Source: Geothrix oryzae (lineage in GTDB: Bacteria > Acidobacteriota > Holophagae > Holophagales > Holophagaceae). From it: a stretch of 64,000 nucleotides of DNA. Position 1 is the first letter of the stretch, and each line of letters starts with the position of its first letter. The position numbers and the translations under genes are program-made. The notes under the pieces were generated by a model, which had not been told where the DNA came from, did not search any database, and worked only from the letters and a program-made list of their open reading frames with translations. The stretch spans positions 2,480,001-2,544,000 of the forward strand of contig NZ_AP027079.1 of assembly GCF_030295385.1 (NCBI RefSeq), written 5' to 3'. This document shows, piece after piece, positions 29,007 to 38,206 of the stretch.

Positions 29007-30638
29007 ATGAACGCCATGCTTCCAACCCGCCGGGTGACCCCCACGACCTTCGCGCGGGGCATGCGGGGCTTCCTGATCGCCTTCAACCTCCTGATGGTGG
29101 TCTTCGCCGCGTGGGCCCTCCACCGGTCGCGGAAGCACGAGGTCGAGCAGGCTTCGATCACCACCCTCAACCTCGCGCAGGTGCTGGAGGAGAGCATCAA
29201 GGGCCGGATCCGCCAGATCGACCTGGCCCTGCTGTCCATCAAGGAGCAGACCGAGCACAGCCCGGGCGGCCCCTTCAACAAGAGCCTGGGGGCCTTCGCG
29301 GAATCCCGCCTCGCCCGCCTGGGCATGGTCGATGCCCTCCGCATCACCGACCGCGAGGGCCGAGTCCTCCACGGAGCTTCCCCGGGAACCTCGGCCGAGG
29401 TGGGGCAGCGGGACTTCTTCCAGGCCCTGAAGATGGATCCCCAGGCCGGCCTGGTGGTCTCCCGGCCCGCCCAGGATGCCCGGGGCGGGGCCTGGGCCCT
29501 GACCTTGGCCCACCGGATCGAGGCCCCCGATGGGACTTTCGCCGGAGTGATCTGCGCCACCCTCACCCTGGAGCAGCTCGGCCGCGCCATGTCCCTCGTG
29601 GATGTGGGCCGGAAGGGATCGATCTCCCTGAGGGGGGAGGACCTCGACCTCCTGGTCCGCTACCCCGCCTTCGCGGGGCAGGAAAAGCTGATCGGCAGCA
29701 CCCAGGTCTTCGGCGACTACCTGACGGCCGTGAAGAGCTCCGCCGCCACCGCCCAGTTCTCCGCCACCTCGGTGGTGGACGGCCAGCGCCGCATCTACAC
29801 CCTGCGGAAGCTCGATGCCCCGAGGTTCTATGTCCTGGTGGGCCTCTCGGAAGAGGACTACCTCCGCACCTGGCGGCACCAGGCCGCCTTCGCGGCGGTG
29901 GCCGTCGCTGGTCTGGTGGGCCTCACCCTGGCCATGGGCTGGCTCGCCCGGGCGGCCTGGCTGCGCCAGCTCGCAGACCAGGAGCGCCTGGCGGCCCAGG
30001 AGGCGAAATACCGCCTGCTGGCCGAGAACGCCCTGGATGTCATCTGGACCATGGACCCCGACGGCCGGCTCACCTATGTCAGCCCCTCCGTGGTGCGCCA
30101 GCGCGGCTGGACCCCCGAGGAGTTCATGCACCTGGGCTCCGAGAGCAGGGCCCTCTCCGCCAATGGTGCGGCCATCATCCAGGAGCGGATGACCCGGTCC
30201 CGCCAGGCCCTCCCGGGCACCCAGCCCTTCGAGCAGGATCTGATCCAGGCGACCGTGAACCGGAAGGATGGCCAGCAGATCCAAGTCGAGGCCCAGTGGC
30301 GGATCGTCTGGGGCGAGGACGGCCGCCTGATGGGCTTCCAGGGCGTCACCCGGGATGTCACCGAGCGCAAGCGGTTGGAGGCCGACCGTGAGGACCTGAT
30401 CCGCGATCTGACGCAGGCCCTCACGGAAGTGAAGCAGCTCAGCGGCATGCTCCCCATCTGCGGCCAGTGCAAGAAGGTGCGCGACGACCAGGGCTACTGG
30501 AGCCAGATCGAGACCTACCTCTCCCAGCACACCGAAGCCACCTTCACCCACGGCCTCTGCCCCGAGTGCACCGCCGCCTTCCGGCAAGAGATGCAGGCCC
30601 GGCGGGACCAACGGAACCCCGACGAGCGTCAAGGGTGA
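29007..30638 (+). CDS. Membrane PAS sensor protein with C-terminal Cys-rich tail, no kinase domain
   Basis: 543 residues: transmembrane helix ~20-40, a periplasmic sensing domain (dCache-like, ~41-285) and a second helix ~290-315. A PAS domain (~335-455) opens YRLLAENALDVIWTMDPDG and ends GVTRDVTERKRLEADRE. A coiled-coil of ~25 residues leads to a C-terminal block containing CGQCKKVRDDQGYW and, ~35 residues later, CPEC. This CxxC pair is a recurrent sensor tail, presumably metal-binding. No HATPase, GGDEF or HD domain follows, so the output must be by protein contact. It ends just before the 74-bp repeat array. Confidence 0.85.
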   Translation: MNAMLPTRRVTPTTFARGMRGFLIAFNLLMVVFAAWALHRSRKHEVEQASITTLNLAQVLEESIKGRIRQIDLALLSIKEQTEHSPGGPFNKSLGAFAESRLARLGMVDALRITDREGRVLHGASPGTSAEVGQRDFFQALKMDPQAGLVVSRPAQDARGGAWALTLAHRIEAPDGTFAGVICATLTLEQLGRAMSLVDVGRKGSISLRGEDLDLLVRYPAFAGQEKLIGSTQVFGDYLTAVKSSAATAQFSATSVVDGQRRIYTLRKLDAPRFYVLVGLSEEDYLRTWRHQAAFAAVAVAGLVGLTLAMGWLARAAWLRQLADQERLAAQEAKYRLLAENALDVIWTMDPDGRLTYVSPSVVRQRGWTPEEFMHLGSESRALSANGAAIIQERMTRSRQALPGTQPFEQDLIQATVNRKDGQQIQVEAQWRIVWGEDGRLMGFQGVTRDVTERKRLEADREDLIRDLTQALTEVKQLSGMLPICGQCKKVRDDQGYWSQIETYLSQHTEATFTHGLCPECTAAFRQEMQARRDQRNPDERQG

Positions 30639-30700
30639 TCAAGGGCACATTCCCTCCCCAACCATCCCCTGGATACTGGAACCATGTGGATCCGAACCCC

Positions 30701-30823
30701 ATGAGCCCAGAGCAGAGCCGTAGGACGAGGCCCAAAAGGTGCCGAGTGAGCCTGCACCAGGAGCAGAGGGCCACCGCGCGCCGCGCGGCCCCGCAGGGGT
30801 TGGGCCCAGGAGGTGCCGAGTGA
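30701..30823 (+). CDS. Possible 40-codon leader ORF at head of repeat array
   Basis: ATG-initiated frame whose first residues MSPEQ match MSPQQ of the repeat-encoded peptides; it then reads in frame through the diverged repeat unit (internal GTG at 30746) and stops at TGA, overlapping the next GTG start by four bases. No strong ribosome site precedes the ATG. It is too short to judge by coding statistics; translation is unproven. Confidence 0.25.
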   Translation: MSPEQSRRTRPKRCRVSLHQEQRATARRAAPQGLGPGGAE

Positions 30824-31193
30824 GCCCGCAGCAGGAGCGGAGGGCCACCGTCGCGAAGCGATGGCCCGCAGGGCACGGCACAGGAGGTGCCGTGTGAGCC
30901 CGCAGCAGGAGCGGAGGGCCACCGTCGCGAAGCGATGGCCCGCAGGGCACGGCACAGGAGGTGCCGTGTGAGCCCGCAGCAGGAGCGGAGGGCCACCGTC
31001 GCGAAGCGATGGCCCGCAGGGCACGGCACAGGAGGTGCCGTGTGAGCCCGCAGCAGGAGCGGAGGGCCACCGTCGCGAAGCGATGGCCCGCAGGGCACGG
31101 CACAGGAGGTGCCGTGTGAGCCCGCAGCAGGAGCGGAGGGCCACCGTCGCGAAGCGATGGCCCGCAGGGCACGGCACAGGAGGTGCCGTGTGA
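30820..31193 (+). other. Chain of five identical 25-codon mini-ORFs, each GTGA-overlapping the next
   Basis: GTG starts lie at 30820, 30894, 30968, 31042 and 31116, each with AGGAGGT five bases upstream. Every frame encodes the same 25-residue basic peptide (begins MSPQQERRATVAKRW, ends GTGGAV) and ends in TGA overlapping the next GTG. The last stop (31191-31193) overlaps the GTG start (31190) of the P-loop gene. The frames could be real coupled leader peptides or a by-product of duplicating the start region of that gene. The diverged unit keeps the same length, frame and overlap, which mildly favours function. Confidence 0.4.
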
Positions 31194-31750
31194 AGATCGC
31201 CTTCATCGGCACGCACGGGGTCGGGAAGACCACCCTCTGCTATGAACTGGCCGCGGCCTTGAAGCGGGGCGGCGTCCATGTGGACATCGTCAAGGAAGTG
31301 GCGCGGCTCTCGCCCCTGCCCATCAACCGCAAGACCTCCCTGGAGGCGCAGACCTGGATCTTCATGACCCAGATCGCGGAGGAGATCCGCTCGGCCAGCC
31401 AGCACGATGTGGTGGTGTGCGACCGCAGCGTGCTGGACAACTACGCCTACATGCTGTTCGCCTTCGGACGCCAACGCTCCATCGAGAGCTTCATGTACCA
31501 CTGGATGAAGACCTACGACCTGCTCTTCAAAGTGCCCGTGTCCGGGGAAGTCTCCGCCGACGGCGTGCGCGACACCGATGACTTCTTCATCCGCTCCATC
31601 GACCAGCTGGTGGACAGCCTGCTGGAGGAGCGGAAGATCGCCCATGAACGGCTTCGCCCCGAGGAGCGGGCCACCTGGATCGACCGCGTGAAGGAGGTGG
31701 TGCTCGCACACCCCAAGGGGCAGCTCCCGCTGCTGTCCGAACCCCGCTGA
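31190..31750 (+). CDS. AAA_28/NadR-like P-loop ATPase or kinase
   Basis: A 186-residue P-loop NTPase: Walker A GTHGVGKTT (~7-15), a Walker-B-like VVVCDRSVLDNYAY (~75-90), and a C-terminal helical lid (RLRPEERATWIDRVKEVV). The arrangement matches the AAA_28/NadR kinase-like family, which includes nucleoside or nucleotide kinases; the substrate is not evident. The start is GTG with AGGAGGT at optimal spacing. Earlier in-frame starts would read through the repeat array and are rejected. Translation is probably shaped by the upstream repeat-encoded frames and the hairpin presenting its Shine-Dalgarno. Confidence 0.85.
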   Translation: MKIAFIGTHGVGKTTLCYELAAALKRGGVHVDIVKEVARLSPLPINRKTSLEAQTWIFMTQIAEEIRSASQHDVVVCDRSVLDNYAYMLFAFGRQRSIESFMYHWMKTYDLLFKVPVSGEVSADGVRDTDDFFIRSIDQLVDSLLEERKIAHERLRPEERATWIDRVKEVVLAHPKGQLPLLSEPR

Positions 31751-31832: not shown

Positions 31833-33578
31833 ATGGCCGAGACCAGCCTGCTGCCCGTGCGCGGTGGCAGTTTCATGTTCCACCCCGCGGGCTCTCTGCG
31901 GCAGTTCACGCCCGAGGACAGCAGCGAAGAGGCGCTCGCCATCGCCGAAGCCGCCCGGGACTTCATGAACGGCGAGGTCATGCCCCGGGACGAGGCCATC
32001 GACCGCCTCGACCTGGAGCTGAACCGGGAACTGCTCGGCAAGGCCGGCGAGCTGGGCATCCTGGGCATCGAGATCCCCGAGGCCTACGGCGGCCTGGACC
32101 TCGACAAGAAGACCGCCCTCCTGGTGCTGGAGGAGATGGCCAAGCAGGCCAGCTTCTCCACCAGCTACGGGGCCCACACCAGCATCGGCACCCTGCCCAT
32201 CGTCTACTTCGGGAACCACGCCCAGAAGTCGAAATACCTGCCGAAGCTGGCGAGCGGCGAGTGGGTGGCGGCCTACGCGCTGACGGAAGCCGGCAGCGGC
32301 TCCGACGCCCTGGGCGCCAAGGCCACCGCGGTGCTGGAGGACGGTCACTGGGTGCTGAACGGCACCAAGGCCTGGATCACCAATGCCGGTTTCGCCGATG
32401 TCTTCGTCGTCTTCGCCAAGATCAACGGCACCCACCTCAGCGCCTTCATCATCGAGAAGACCGATCCCGGCGTGAGCACCGGCGCCGAGGAGAAGAAGCT
32501 GGGCATCAAGGGCAGCTCCACCCGCACCGTCATCCTGGAGAACTGCCGCATCCCCGAGGACCGCCTGCTGGGCGGCAAGGGCAAGGGCGCCCGCATCGCC
32601 TTCGGCATCCTGAACATCGGCCGCTTCAAGCTGGGCGCCAGTTCCGCGGGGGCCGGCAAGCGGGTGCTGGAATACACCCTGAAATACGCCGGGGAGCGCA
32701 CCCAGTTCGGCAAGCCGCTCACGGCCTTCGGCCTCATCCAGCAGAAGCTGGCGAACATGGCCGTGCGGATCTTCGTGGGCGAGAGCATGAACTTCCGCAC
32801 CATCGGCTACCTGGACGAGGCCCTGGCCCGCACCAGCTGGGAGAGCGAGACCGCAGGCGCCGACAAGATGAGGGCCATCGAGGAGTACGCCGTGGAAGCC
32901 TCCATGGCCAAGGTGTGGGGCAGCGAGGCCCTCTTCGCCACCGCGGACGACGCCGTGCAGACCTTCGGCGGCGCGGGCTTCAGCGCCGAGTACCCCGCCG
33001 AGAAGATCTACCGGGACTGCCGCATCAACCGCATCTTCGAGGGCACCAACGAGATCAACCGCCTGCTTATCGCCGGCACCTTCCTCAAGCGCTGCGGCGG
33101 ACCCGAGGGGCTGCCGCTGGTCGAGACCGCCGCGGCCCCCCTGGATCTCCCCGAGGATCCCCTGCTCCGCACCATCGCCCTGGCCAAGGCCCGGGCCCTG
33201 AAGGTCATCGCCCTGGCCCAATCCGACTGGGGCCCGAAAATTCTGGACAATCAGGAGGCCTCCGCGCGCATCAGCAACCTGCTGCTGGAGATCTACGCCA
33301 TGGAATCGGCGGTCATCCGGGCCCGGCGCATGATCGAGGCCGGGCACCGGTGGGCCGCCCTCGCCCGGGACCTGGCTGAGGTCTACGCCCAGGAGGCCTG
33401 GAACCGCGTGCAGGGCGAGGCCCGGATGCTGGCCGCCGAACTGGCCTCCGACGCCGTCCTCGATGCCCTGGTCGCGGACCTGCTGGCCATGCACGCTCCC
33501 AGTCCCGCCCCCCTCTCCGTCCTGCGGAACCGCATCACCCAGGCCCTGATCGAGCAGGGGAGATACCCCCTCTCCTGA
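31833..33578 (+). CDS. Acyl-CoA dehydrogenase, long-chain type (paralogue 1)
   Basis: FAD enzyme that introduces the trans-2 double bond in acyl-CoA; 581 residues, longer than the ~380-residue core, as in VLCAD-like forms with a C-terminal helical extension. FAD/substrate words: YALTEAGSGSDALG, WITNAGFADVF, ERTQFGKPL, and the catalytic glutamate region RINRIFEGTNEINRLL. GGAGGT lies upstream of the ATG. A close paralogue is 4.6 kb downstream on the same strand. No ETF genes are in the window. Confidence 0.93.
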   Translation: MAETSLLPVRGGSFMFHPAGSLRQFTPEDSSEEALAIAEAARDFMNGEVMPRDEAIDRLDLELNRELLGKAGELGILGIEIPEAYGGLDLDKKTALLVLEEMAKQASFSTSYGAHTSIGTLPIVYFGNHAQKSKYLPKLASGEWVAAYALTEAGSGSDALGAKATAVLEDGHWVLNGTKAWITNAGFADVFVVFAKINGTHLSAFIIEKTDPGVSTGAEEKKLGIKGSSTRTVILENCRIPEDRLLGGKGKGARIAFGILNIGRFKLGASSAGAGKRVLEYTLKYAGERTQFGKPLTAFGLIQQKLANMAVRIFVGESMNFRTIGYLDEALARTSWESETAGADKMRAIEEYAVEASMAKVWGSEALFATADDAVQTFGGAGFSAEYPAEKIYRDCRINRIFEGTNEINRLLIAGTFLKRCGGPEGLPLVETAAAPLDLPEDPLLRTIALAKARALKVIALAQSDWGPKILDNQEASARISNLLLEIYAMESAVIRARRMIEAGHRWAALARDLAEVYAQEAWNRVQGEARMLAAELASDAVLDALVADLLAMHAPSPAPLSVLRNRITQALIEQGRYPLS

Positions 33579-36421: not shown

Positions 36422-38206
36422 ATGAGCACCACCGCTGCAGAGCAGGTCAAGGGGGGCAGTTTCCTCATGACCCCCATCGGGGCCCTGCCCCAGTTCACCC
36501 CCGAGGAATTCGGCGACGATGCCAAGGAATTCGCCCGGGCCGCCCGGGATTTCATCCAGGGCGAAGTGCTGCCCCGGGATGAGCAGATCGACAAGCTGGA
36601 CCTCCCCCTCACCATCGAGCTCATGAAGAAGGCCGGCGAGCTGGGGCTGCTGGGTCTGGAGATCCCCGAGGCCTACGACGGCATGGATGTGGACAAGCGG
36701 TCCGCCATGCTCGTGCTCGAGGAGATGAGCAAGCAGGGCAGCTTCGCCGTGAGCTACAGCGCCAACACCGGCATCGGCACCCTGCCCATCGTCTACTTCG
36801 GCACCGAGGCCCAGAAGAAGCATTACCTCCCCAAGCTGGCCACGGGCGAATGGCTGGCCGCCTACGCCCTCACCGAGGCCGGCAGCGGCTCCGATGCCCT
36901 GGGCGCCAAGGCCACGGCCGTGCTGGATGGCGACAGCTGGGTGCTCAACGGCACCAAGATGTGGATCACCAACGCCGGTTTCGCCGATGTCTTCATCATC
37001 TTCGCCAAGGTGGACGGTCAGCACTTCAGCGCCTTCATCGTCGAAAAGAACGACCCCGGCATCAGCACGGGAGCCGAGGAGAAGAAGCTCGGCATCAAGG
37101 GCAGCTCCACCCGCACCGTCATCCTGGAGAACTGCCGCATTCCCAAGGACCGCCTGCTGGGCGAGCTGGGCAAGGGCCACAAGATCGCCTTCGGCATCCT
37201 CAACATCGGCCGCTTCAAGCTGGGCGTGGGCAGCCAGGGCGGCATGAAGCGGATCCTTGAATACGCCATCAAGTACACCTCGGAGCGCCAGCAGTTCGGG
37301 AAGCCCATCAACTCGTTCGGGCTCATCCAGCAGAAGCTGGCGGACATGGCCACCAAGATCTTCGTCTGCGAGGCCCTGAACTTCCGGACCACCGGCTACA
37401 TCGACGAGGCCCTGCACGCCACCAGCTGGGACAGCCCCACCGCCGGCGCCGACAAGATGGCCGCCATCGACCAGTACACCATCGAGTGCAGCATCTCCAA
37501 GGTGTGGGCCAGCGAAGCCCTCTTCTCCGTGGCGGACGAAGCCGTGCAGGCCTTTGGCGGCTACGGCTTCAGCGCCGAGTACCCCCCCGAGAAGGCCCTG
37601 CGCGACTGCCGCATCAACCGCATCTTCGAGGGCACCAACGAGATCAACCGCCTCCTCATCGCCGGCACGCTGCTCAAGCGCGCCATGAAGAACGAGCTGC
37701 CCCTCATGCAGTTCGGCCAGCAGGTGGCCAAGGAGATTTCGAACCCGCCCAAGGCCGAGAGCTTCACGGGTCCCCTGGCCCGCCTGAAGCACGGCGTCGA
37801 GCTCAGCAAGCGCCAGTGCATGCTGGCCGCGGGCCTCGCCGTGCAGGTGCTGGGCCAGAAGCTCATCGACAACCAGGAGGTCATGGCCCGCATGAGCAAC
37901 ATGCTCATGGAAATCTACGCCATGGAGAGCGCCGTGGTGCGCGCCGAGCGCATGGTCGAGTCCGGCCACCGCTGGGCCCAGATCGCCCGGGACATCACCG
38001 AACTCTATGTCAACGAGAGCTGGCACAAGGTCCACGGCGACGCCCGCATGCTCTGCGCGGATGTGGTCGAGGGCGAGGCCCTGCGGCACGCCCTGGCCGG
38101 CGTGAGGGCCTTCACGGAGTTCCACCCCACCAGCAGCGCCCGCCTGCGCGGCCGCATCGCCAGCGAACTGATCCAGAAGGGAAGCTACCCGGTCGATGTG
38201 ATCTGA
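36422..38206 (+). CDS. Acyl-CoA dehydrogenase, long-chain type (paralogue 2)
   Basis: 594 residues, strongly similar over its whole length to the dehydrogenase at 31.8 kb, sharing GGSFLM-like starts, YALTEAGSGSDALGAKATAVL, WITNAGFADVFIIF, and RINRIFEGTNEINRLL with the catalytic glutamate. The pair differs mainly after residue ~415. GGAGGACAGAG precedes the ATG. A perfect palindrome terminates the gene. The two copies suggest different chain-length preference or expression. Confidence 0.94.
   Translation: MSTTAAEQVKGGSFLMTPIGALPQFTPEEFGDDAKEFARAARDFIQGEVLPRDEQIDKLDLPLTIELMKKAGELGLLGLEIPEAYDGMDVDKRSAMLVLEEMSKQGSFAVSYSANTGIGTLPIVYFGTEAQKKHYLPKLATGEWLAAYALTEAGSGSDALGAKATAVLDGDSWVLNGTKMWITNAGFADVFIIFAKVDGQHFSAFIVEKNDPGISTGAEEKKLGIKGSSTRTVILENCRIPKDRLLGELGKGHKIAFGILNIGRFKLGVGSQGGMKRILEYAIKYTSERQQFGKPINSFGLIQQKLADMATKIFVCEALNFRTTGYIDEALHATSWDSPTAGADKMAAIDQYTIECSISKVWASEALFSVADEAVQAFGGYGFSAEYPPEKALRDCRINRIFEGTNEINRLLIAGTLLKRAMKNELPLMQFGQQVAKEISNPPKAESFTGPLARLKHGVELSKRQCMLAAGLAVQVLGQKLIDNQEVMARMSNMLMEIYAMESAVVRAERMVESGHRWAQIARDITELYVNESWHKVHGDARMLCADVVEGEALRHALAGVRAFTEFHPTSSARLRGRIASELIQKGSYPVDVI

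Follow-up and report, generated by a model that had tools for sequence, protein, structure and literature searches.

A tandem array of a dispersed, start-codon-associated 74-bp repeat precedes an ATPase gene in Geothrix oryzae

The array upstream of the ATPase gene

A gene for a NadR-like P-loop ATPase/kinase (AAA_28, PF13521; 186 aa, positions 31190..31750, plus strand) of Geothrix oryzae is preceded by tandem repeats in which each unit resembles a minute gene whose stop codon overlaps the next start, which raises the question of what such a chain is and how it came to stand there. Within the window, by which we mean the whole stretch of 64,000 nucleotides analysed, seven GTGA tetranucleotides (30746, 30820, 30894, 30968, 31042, 31116 and 31190) follow each other at spacings of exactly 74, and TRF gives the array a period of 74 with 6.2 copies and 96% matches, so that the GTGA-coupled 74-bp chain into the ATPase gene described in the first-pass annotation is borne out. 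From 30746 onward, every frame has 25 codons and a TGA overlapping the next GTG. The last five units, all on the plus strand (30820..30897, 30894..30971, 30968..31045, 31042..31119 and 31116..31193), carry AGGAGGT with the start codon five bases on, and the TGA of the final one overlaps GTG 31190, the start of its coupled target, the ATPase gene. The annotation had assigned AGGAGGT to every unit; it does stand ahead of every start in the range 30820-31190, but the one at 30746 is preceded only by AAAAGGT. Likewise, the diverged unit at 30746-30823 keeps its 25-codon frame and GTGA overlap, as had been claimed, but its peptide is part of a 40-codon leader ORF (30701..30823, plus strand), which opens at ATG 30701, ends with a TGA overlapping GTG 30820, and combines a shortened first unit and the diverged one in a single frame.

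The chain is also longer than had been noted. It can be followed back from 31190 through ATGA and GTGA overlaps to a 6-codon mini-ORF of leaderless type (MWIRTP*, 30684..30704, plus strand), whose stop overlaps the next ATG as ATGA. A -10-like box, GATACT (30672..30677, plus strand), stands 6 nt before ATG 30684; the arrangement GATACT-N6-ATG is kept at empty and filled orthologous sites, and we regard the box as a putative leaderless-type promoter. From promoter to gene, the whole chain thus runs without a gap as 6 + 40 + 5 x 25 codons followed by the gene itself.

Arrays of this kind can mislead gene prediction. Under a longest-ORF rule the ATPase gene is stretched to GTG 31109 (213 aa), inside the array, instead of its true start at 31190, the position of the start codon being identical in relatives that do not have the element; annotators should be aware that gene callers may extend such genes in the same way. 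Antisense ORFs of 177, 229 and 360 aa also cross the array (30544-31711, minus strand) and look like by-products of the repeat. Elsewhere in the window, two acyl-CoA dehydrogenase-like ORFs, apparently paralogues, lie near each other on the same strand (31833-33578 and 36422-38206).

A dispersed family at gene starts

Searching the same genome with the 74-mer retrieved 16 matches, more than half of them outside the array. At these other places the general form is ATGAGCACGAAGCAGGAGCGGAGTGCCACTTTGGCGAAGCCGAAGCCCGAAGGGCGCGGCACAGGAGGTGCCGC followed directly by ATGA, immediately 5' of unrelated genes. An alignment of 27 units (A1) gave a model (R1) for genome searches, which yielded 17 strong hits in the own genome. 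These fall into 8 places, of which 7 are gene starts with the unit in the orientation of the gene. The model hit every one of the 47 genomes of the genus at least once (weakly in one of them) and was positive in 8 of the 11 genera of the family at E<=0.01, with no hits in 16 genomes from two other families of the class. The array unit is one member of a dispersed, genus- and family-wide repeat family of Geothrix-type soil bacteria, whose presence at many unrelated genes the first-pass annotation had missed.

We then traced the leader from its first start codon at each of 110 distinct sites that have a convincing reading frame downstream. At 99 of these sites, which are partly orthologous and hence not independent and were fetched as the best-scoring ones, the leader connects to the gene start through 4-nt NTGA overlaps. 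By comparison, the earlier idea of a coupled leader is therefore strongly supported and, because units with a Shine-Dalgarno (SD) sequence and a 4-nt overlap recur at so many sites, a single tandem duplication does not account for the coupling. The same-strand stop/start overlap characteristic of coupled ORFs is present at these 99 of 110 sites, and dependence of the downstream gene on translation of the leader is a prediction. Eight sites were scored as broken; four of them end merely 7-8 nt beyond the start, and most of the others have no convincing gene. A search in related genomes for homologous arrays that break the GTGA coupling, which the annotation had proposed as a way of refuting it, left the coupling standing.

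The frame is kept even when the unit changes in length. Of the leader frames, 149 were followed; 100 are exactly 25 codons long, and the remainder are mostly longer (44, 46, 65, 66, 69, 87 or 88 codons) owing to other repeats nested inside, for instance a 57-nt palindromic insert in the loop of P4, the last hairpin of the unit. Leaders enlarged from 25 up to 88 codons by such in-frame inserts still end in a coupled NTGA. Units of +1 length (L011, L038 and L158) instead continue in frame into the one that follows, lengths that would break the frame hardly occur, and indel-bearing units keep the coupling frame, bar a few in-frame fusions and one or two exceptions. A good SD precedes nearly every overlap. 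The genes downstream fall into about 39 unrelated protein clusters and include murF, clpX, nadE, nnrD, hemC, nuoC, nuoB, dnaJ, ddl, prmA and an acrB-like gene, these names being given by sequence recognition and that of the ATPase gene (PF13521) alone by family search.

Some other repeats came to light at these loci. Another palindromic repeat (GGCTCCGCCTCGGCAAGCGGAGCGCGCCGGAGCACGCGCAGCGTGCGTTAGGCGGAGG), about 57-64 nt long and likewise dispersed, occurs both on its own between genes and as an in-frame insert within the P4 loop of leaders (L012, L129, L271, L279, L291, L292; 2271892-2271953 in the own genome), and a third type of insert, of 57-63 nt (GGCTCCATGTCCACGAG...CCGATACATGGAGG), lies in frame within the P1 part of leaders (L043, L051, L119, L020). 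There is also a subfamily (L198, L208, L214, L224, L105) that ends in GTCA instead of GTGA and lies away from gene starts, with its hairpins kept and the start codon gone; it may serve another role, and at L198 it is tandemly repeated with a unit of about 155 bp.

Variation between orthologous sites and among units

Orthologous sites with and without the element reveal what precedes and follows its arrival. For an nnrD-like gene, 21 of the 28 genomes in which it could be placed are empty, with TAnACT, 6-7 nt and the ATG of the gene, and the other seven are filled, with the same box and spacing followed by ATGA, the unit, and RTGA at the same codon of the gene. The empty genes start with ATG in 21 of 21 cases and so do the leaders in 7 of 7, whereas five of the seven genes behind a leader start with GTG, as would be expected if the leader had inherited the leaderless start and the gene had become Shine-Dalgarno-dependent. 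The ATPase gene is empty in four relatives, with GATACT-N6-ATG directly on the gene, and filled in seven, in all of which the same GATACT box opens an unbroken leader chain; in further relatives, a unit lies inside the stop/start overlap with the preceding gene. In the fetched sequences TAnnnT peaks 6-7 nt before ATG, which suggests that many genes here have leaderless starts; elsewhere, e.g. in Deinococcus-Thermus, such genes with a -10 box next to them are known (PMC12340547). The ATPase gene of several species has a conserved GGGCACA or GAACACA block some 30 nt upstream of GATACT, and in element-free relatives this block lies about 50-55 nt before the start of the gene; it is possibly a promoter element or binding site.

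The number of units also varies. There is one before murF in this genome and three (25, 66 and 25 codons) in another genome of the same species, while a sister species has one, of 66 codons. The ATPase locus is absent from the 64%-complete genome G044 of the same species. Similarly, nadE has two units here versus one in the sister species, and the ATPase gene ranges from 0 to about 5-6 across genomes. The variation implied by the copy-number-tunable control that had been suggested for the array thus exists, at murF even within a species, and its effect on expression is a prediction.

Each unit folds into four successive hairpins. In the last, P4, the loop contains AGGAG, the SD core, and the stem has the first base of the next start codon at its foot; in the last unit of the array P4 is formed by CACGGCAC-AGGAG-GTGCCGTG (31170..31190, plus strand). 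Folding, covariation and a control with shuffled arms all point to this hairpin: both sides have changed in 16 of 25 pairs among 27 units, 92.4% of cells can pair versus 80.8% when shuffled and 35-47% when slid, and the P4 region folds at -14.5 kcal/mol versus -8.6 with the left arm shuffled, a mean cost of about 6 kcal/mol. Among 35 units less than 92% alike, G-U exceeds A-C by 22 to 8, numbers that are small and not independent; this count leaves out the fixed pair 32-42 and pair 1-29, which involves the start-codon base (A or G) and had produced an artefactual equality of G-U and A-C. The excess favours folding of the coding-strand RNA, although DNA-level template switching, rather than selection on RNA, could be a partial source of the covariation. 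Rfam covariance models gave no match at E<=1 in the region 30300-31500.

In contrast to structure and frame, the peptide does not appear to be conserved. The ratio of nonsynonymous to synonymous changes in the leader is 2.68, against a neutral expectation of 2.66, which suggests that the peptide is coding-neutral, and its middle varies along with the hairpin stem (TLAKPKP, TVAKRWP, TGRRPAP, TVRSMAP). The family of basic peptides put forward in the first-pass annotation can thus be set aside almost completely: a functional 25-residue family would agree with the conserved first third (M-S-x-K/Q-Q-E-R) and the basic composition, but hardly with neutral change, with a middle that shifts with the stem, with inserts that triple the length of the peptide, or with the lack of any match of the leader peptides in NCBIfam. 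A leader-peptide attenuator, in which a conserved, gene-specific peptide senses a substrate, was rejected on the neutral ratio and the unrelated targets.

Origin of the array and relation to known systems

Position, conservation of frame, empty and filled sites, covariation and variation in copy number are all visible in the sequences compared, and the reading that we think probably accounts for them is that the array arose by tandem amplification of one copy of a dispersed, mobile 74-bp cassette that is transparent to translation and works by termination-reinitiation. A copy would enter exactly at an NTGA start codon, leaving NTGA on both sides, and the old initiation signal of the gene (a leaderless -10 promoter, a Shine-Dalgarno sequence or an overlap with the upstream gene) would now serve the 25-codon leader. 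A ribosome moving along this leader would unfold P4, whose loop contains the SD and whose base contains the next start codon; at the TGA it would terminate and then, helped by the SD, re-initiate on the overlapping ATG or GTG. Tandem copies would repeat this relay, so that copy number could change without the gene being cut off, and the leader peptide would be a by-product. As judged from sequence, the gene behind the cassette can be translated whatever the number of copies. The mobility of the cassette, like any benefit to the host, is something we infer; no PF01797 transposase is found in the own genome or in 42 of the 47 genomes of the genus, and a minority of related elements lie off gene starts (L105, L198, L208, L214, L224), both of which speak against this reading.

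The same cassette and coupling might instead have been selected as an expression control, each unit providing a strong internal SD and a relay step whose number is tuned per gene, either as a ribosome-feeding booster or as a damping relay. We consider this unlikely, if still worth attention: unit number does differ between genes, between species and within one species, and expression rose up to 20-fold behind a short synthetic upstream ORF whose stop lies at a strong RBS (PMC13255528), but the target genes have no common function, the same gene is often empty in close relatives, and no copy number is conserved per gene. Because the targets are unrelated, the element is often absent from the same gene in relatives and the peptide is neutral, we favour a cassette tolerated as transparent over one kept as an expression tuner. 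Much less probable is a palindromic repeat that acts at the level of DNA and inserts at RTGA for reasons of its own, with untranslated leaders and overlaps that merely follow from the insertion site. NTGA does stand at both unit ends, the hairpins could be DNA structures and some copies lie outside gene starts; yet, ubiquitous as RTGA is, the element stands at a gene start and in the orientation of the gene in 7 of its 8 places in this genome, nested inserts are in frame, a good SD precedes nearly all overlaps, and G-U exceeds A-C on the coding strand. Slippage or misassembly of a single leader seems the least credible of all, since the five near-identical copies are one recent event, but many species have diverged units before this gene and the element recurs at dozens of others. 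A bolder and more tentative extension of the transparent cassette is that the element targets start codons as such, recognizing NTGA starts or stop/start junctions, duplicating NTGA and being built not to silence the gene. Leaderless genes would thereby come to be driven by a Shine-Dalgarno sequence and would gain ribosome relays open to amplification, and a mechanism not described so far, templated by RNA or DNA, may account for the spread of the element.

The element lacks defining features that we tested for MITEs, REPs, Rickettsia palindromic elements (RPEs), Rfam families and attenuator leaders. With bacterial MITEs, REP/BIME and BOX/RUP it shares being a small, hairpin-rich interspersed repeat of non-autonomous appearance; those are mostly extragenic, whereas this one lies at start codons in one orientation and has no terminal inverted repeats, its 5' end ATGAGCACGAAG not matching the reverse complement of its 3' end TCATGCGGCACC. 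As regards a target-site duplication, NTGA flanks the 74-bp insert and is single in most empty sites, but it is also functional as stop and start. Mobilization of the REP/RAYT or IS200 type was rejected on the absence of the Y1 transposase (PF01797) from the own genome and from 42 of the 47 in the genus. RPEs, as a review describes them (PMC10969869), are likewise dispersed palindromic repeats, translatable where inserted, in unrelated genes, but they lie in frame inside ORFs as part of the protein, whereas our unit sits at the start codon with its own SD and start as a separate cistron; an RPE was rejected, given that at nearly all sites the unit is a separate cistron ending in NTGA and in-frame fusion is rare.

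The coupling itself has closer parallels. ATGA-overlapping gene pairs (PMC6728339; reviewed in PMC12548453) share the 4-nt NTGA overlap, the internal SD and the inhibitory structure at the downstream start, with strict coupling established experimentally (PMC6728339) and the structure unfolded by the upstream ribosome (PMC12548453); there, however, the upstream partner is a real gene fixed in an operon (PMC6728339), and here it is a dispersed, tandemly amplifying, coding-neutral cassette. In uPPE2-ppe2 of M. tuberculosis (PMC11260477) an AUGA overlap also makes translation of a gene depend on a uORF, but of a single gene under a riboswitch, not in a repeat family without gene specificity. Our searches of the open-access literature gave no precedent for a dispersed start-codon or coupling repeat. 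We know of no earlier interspersed repeat whose niche is the start codon. The parts are known; as far as those searches reach, a start-codon-resident, self-coupling dispersed repeat is new. The case illustrates how essential genes (murF, clpX, hemC, nuoC) can take up a repeat and, it appears, not be silenced by it; it also offers a clear case of leaderless genes gaining Shine-Dalgarno starts, and the natural arrays of 1-6 relays before one gene could be used to determine over how many steps a ribosome is handed along. The closest likeness is with synthetic bicistronic designs and 'nonsense' upstream ORFs, in which a short, coding-irrelevant first cistron with a strong SD by its stop feeds any gene, in-frame and frame-shifted forms both being effective (PMC5995908, PMC13255528). 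Those are man-made, whereas the unit described here is natural, multi-copy and probably spreading by natural means; if our reading is true, it would be the self-spreading counterpart in nature of what synthetic biologists have designed.
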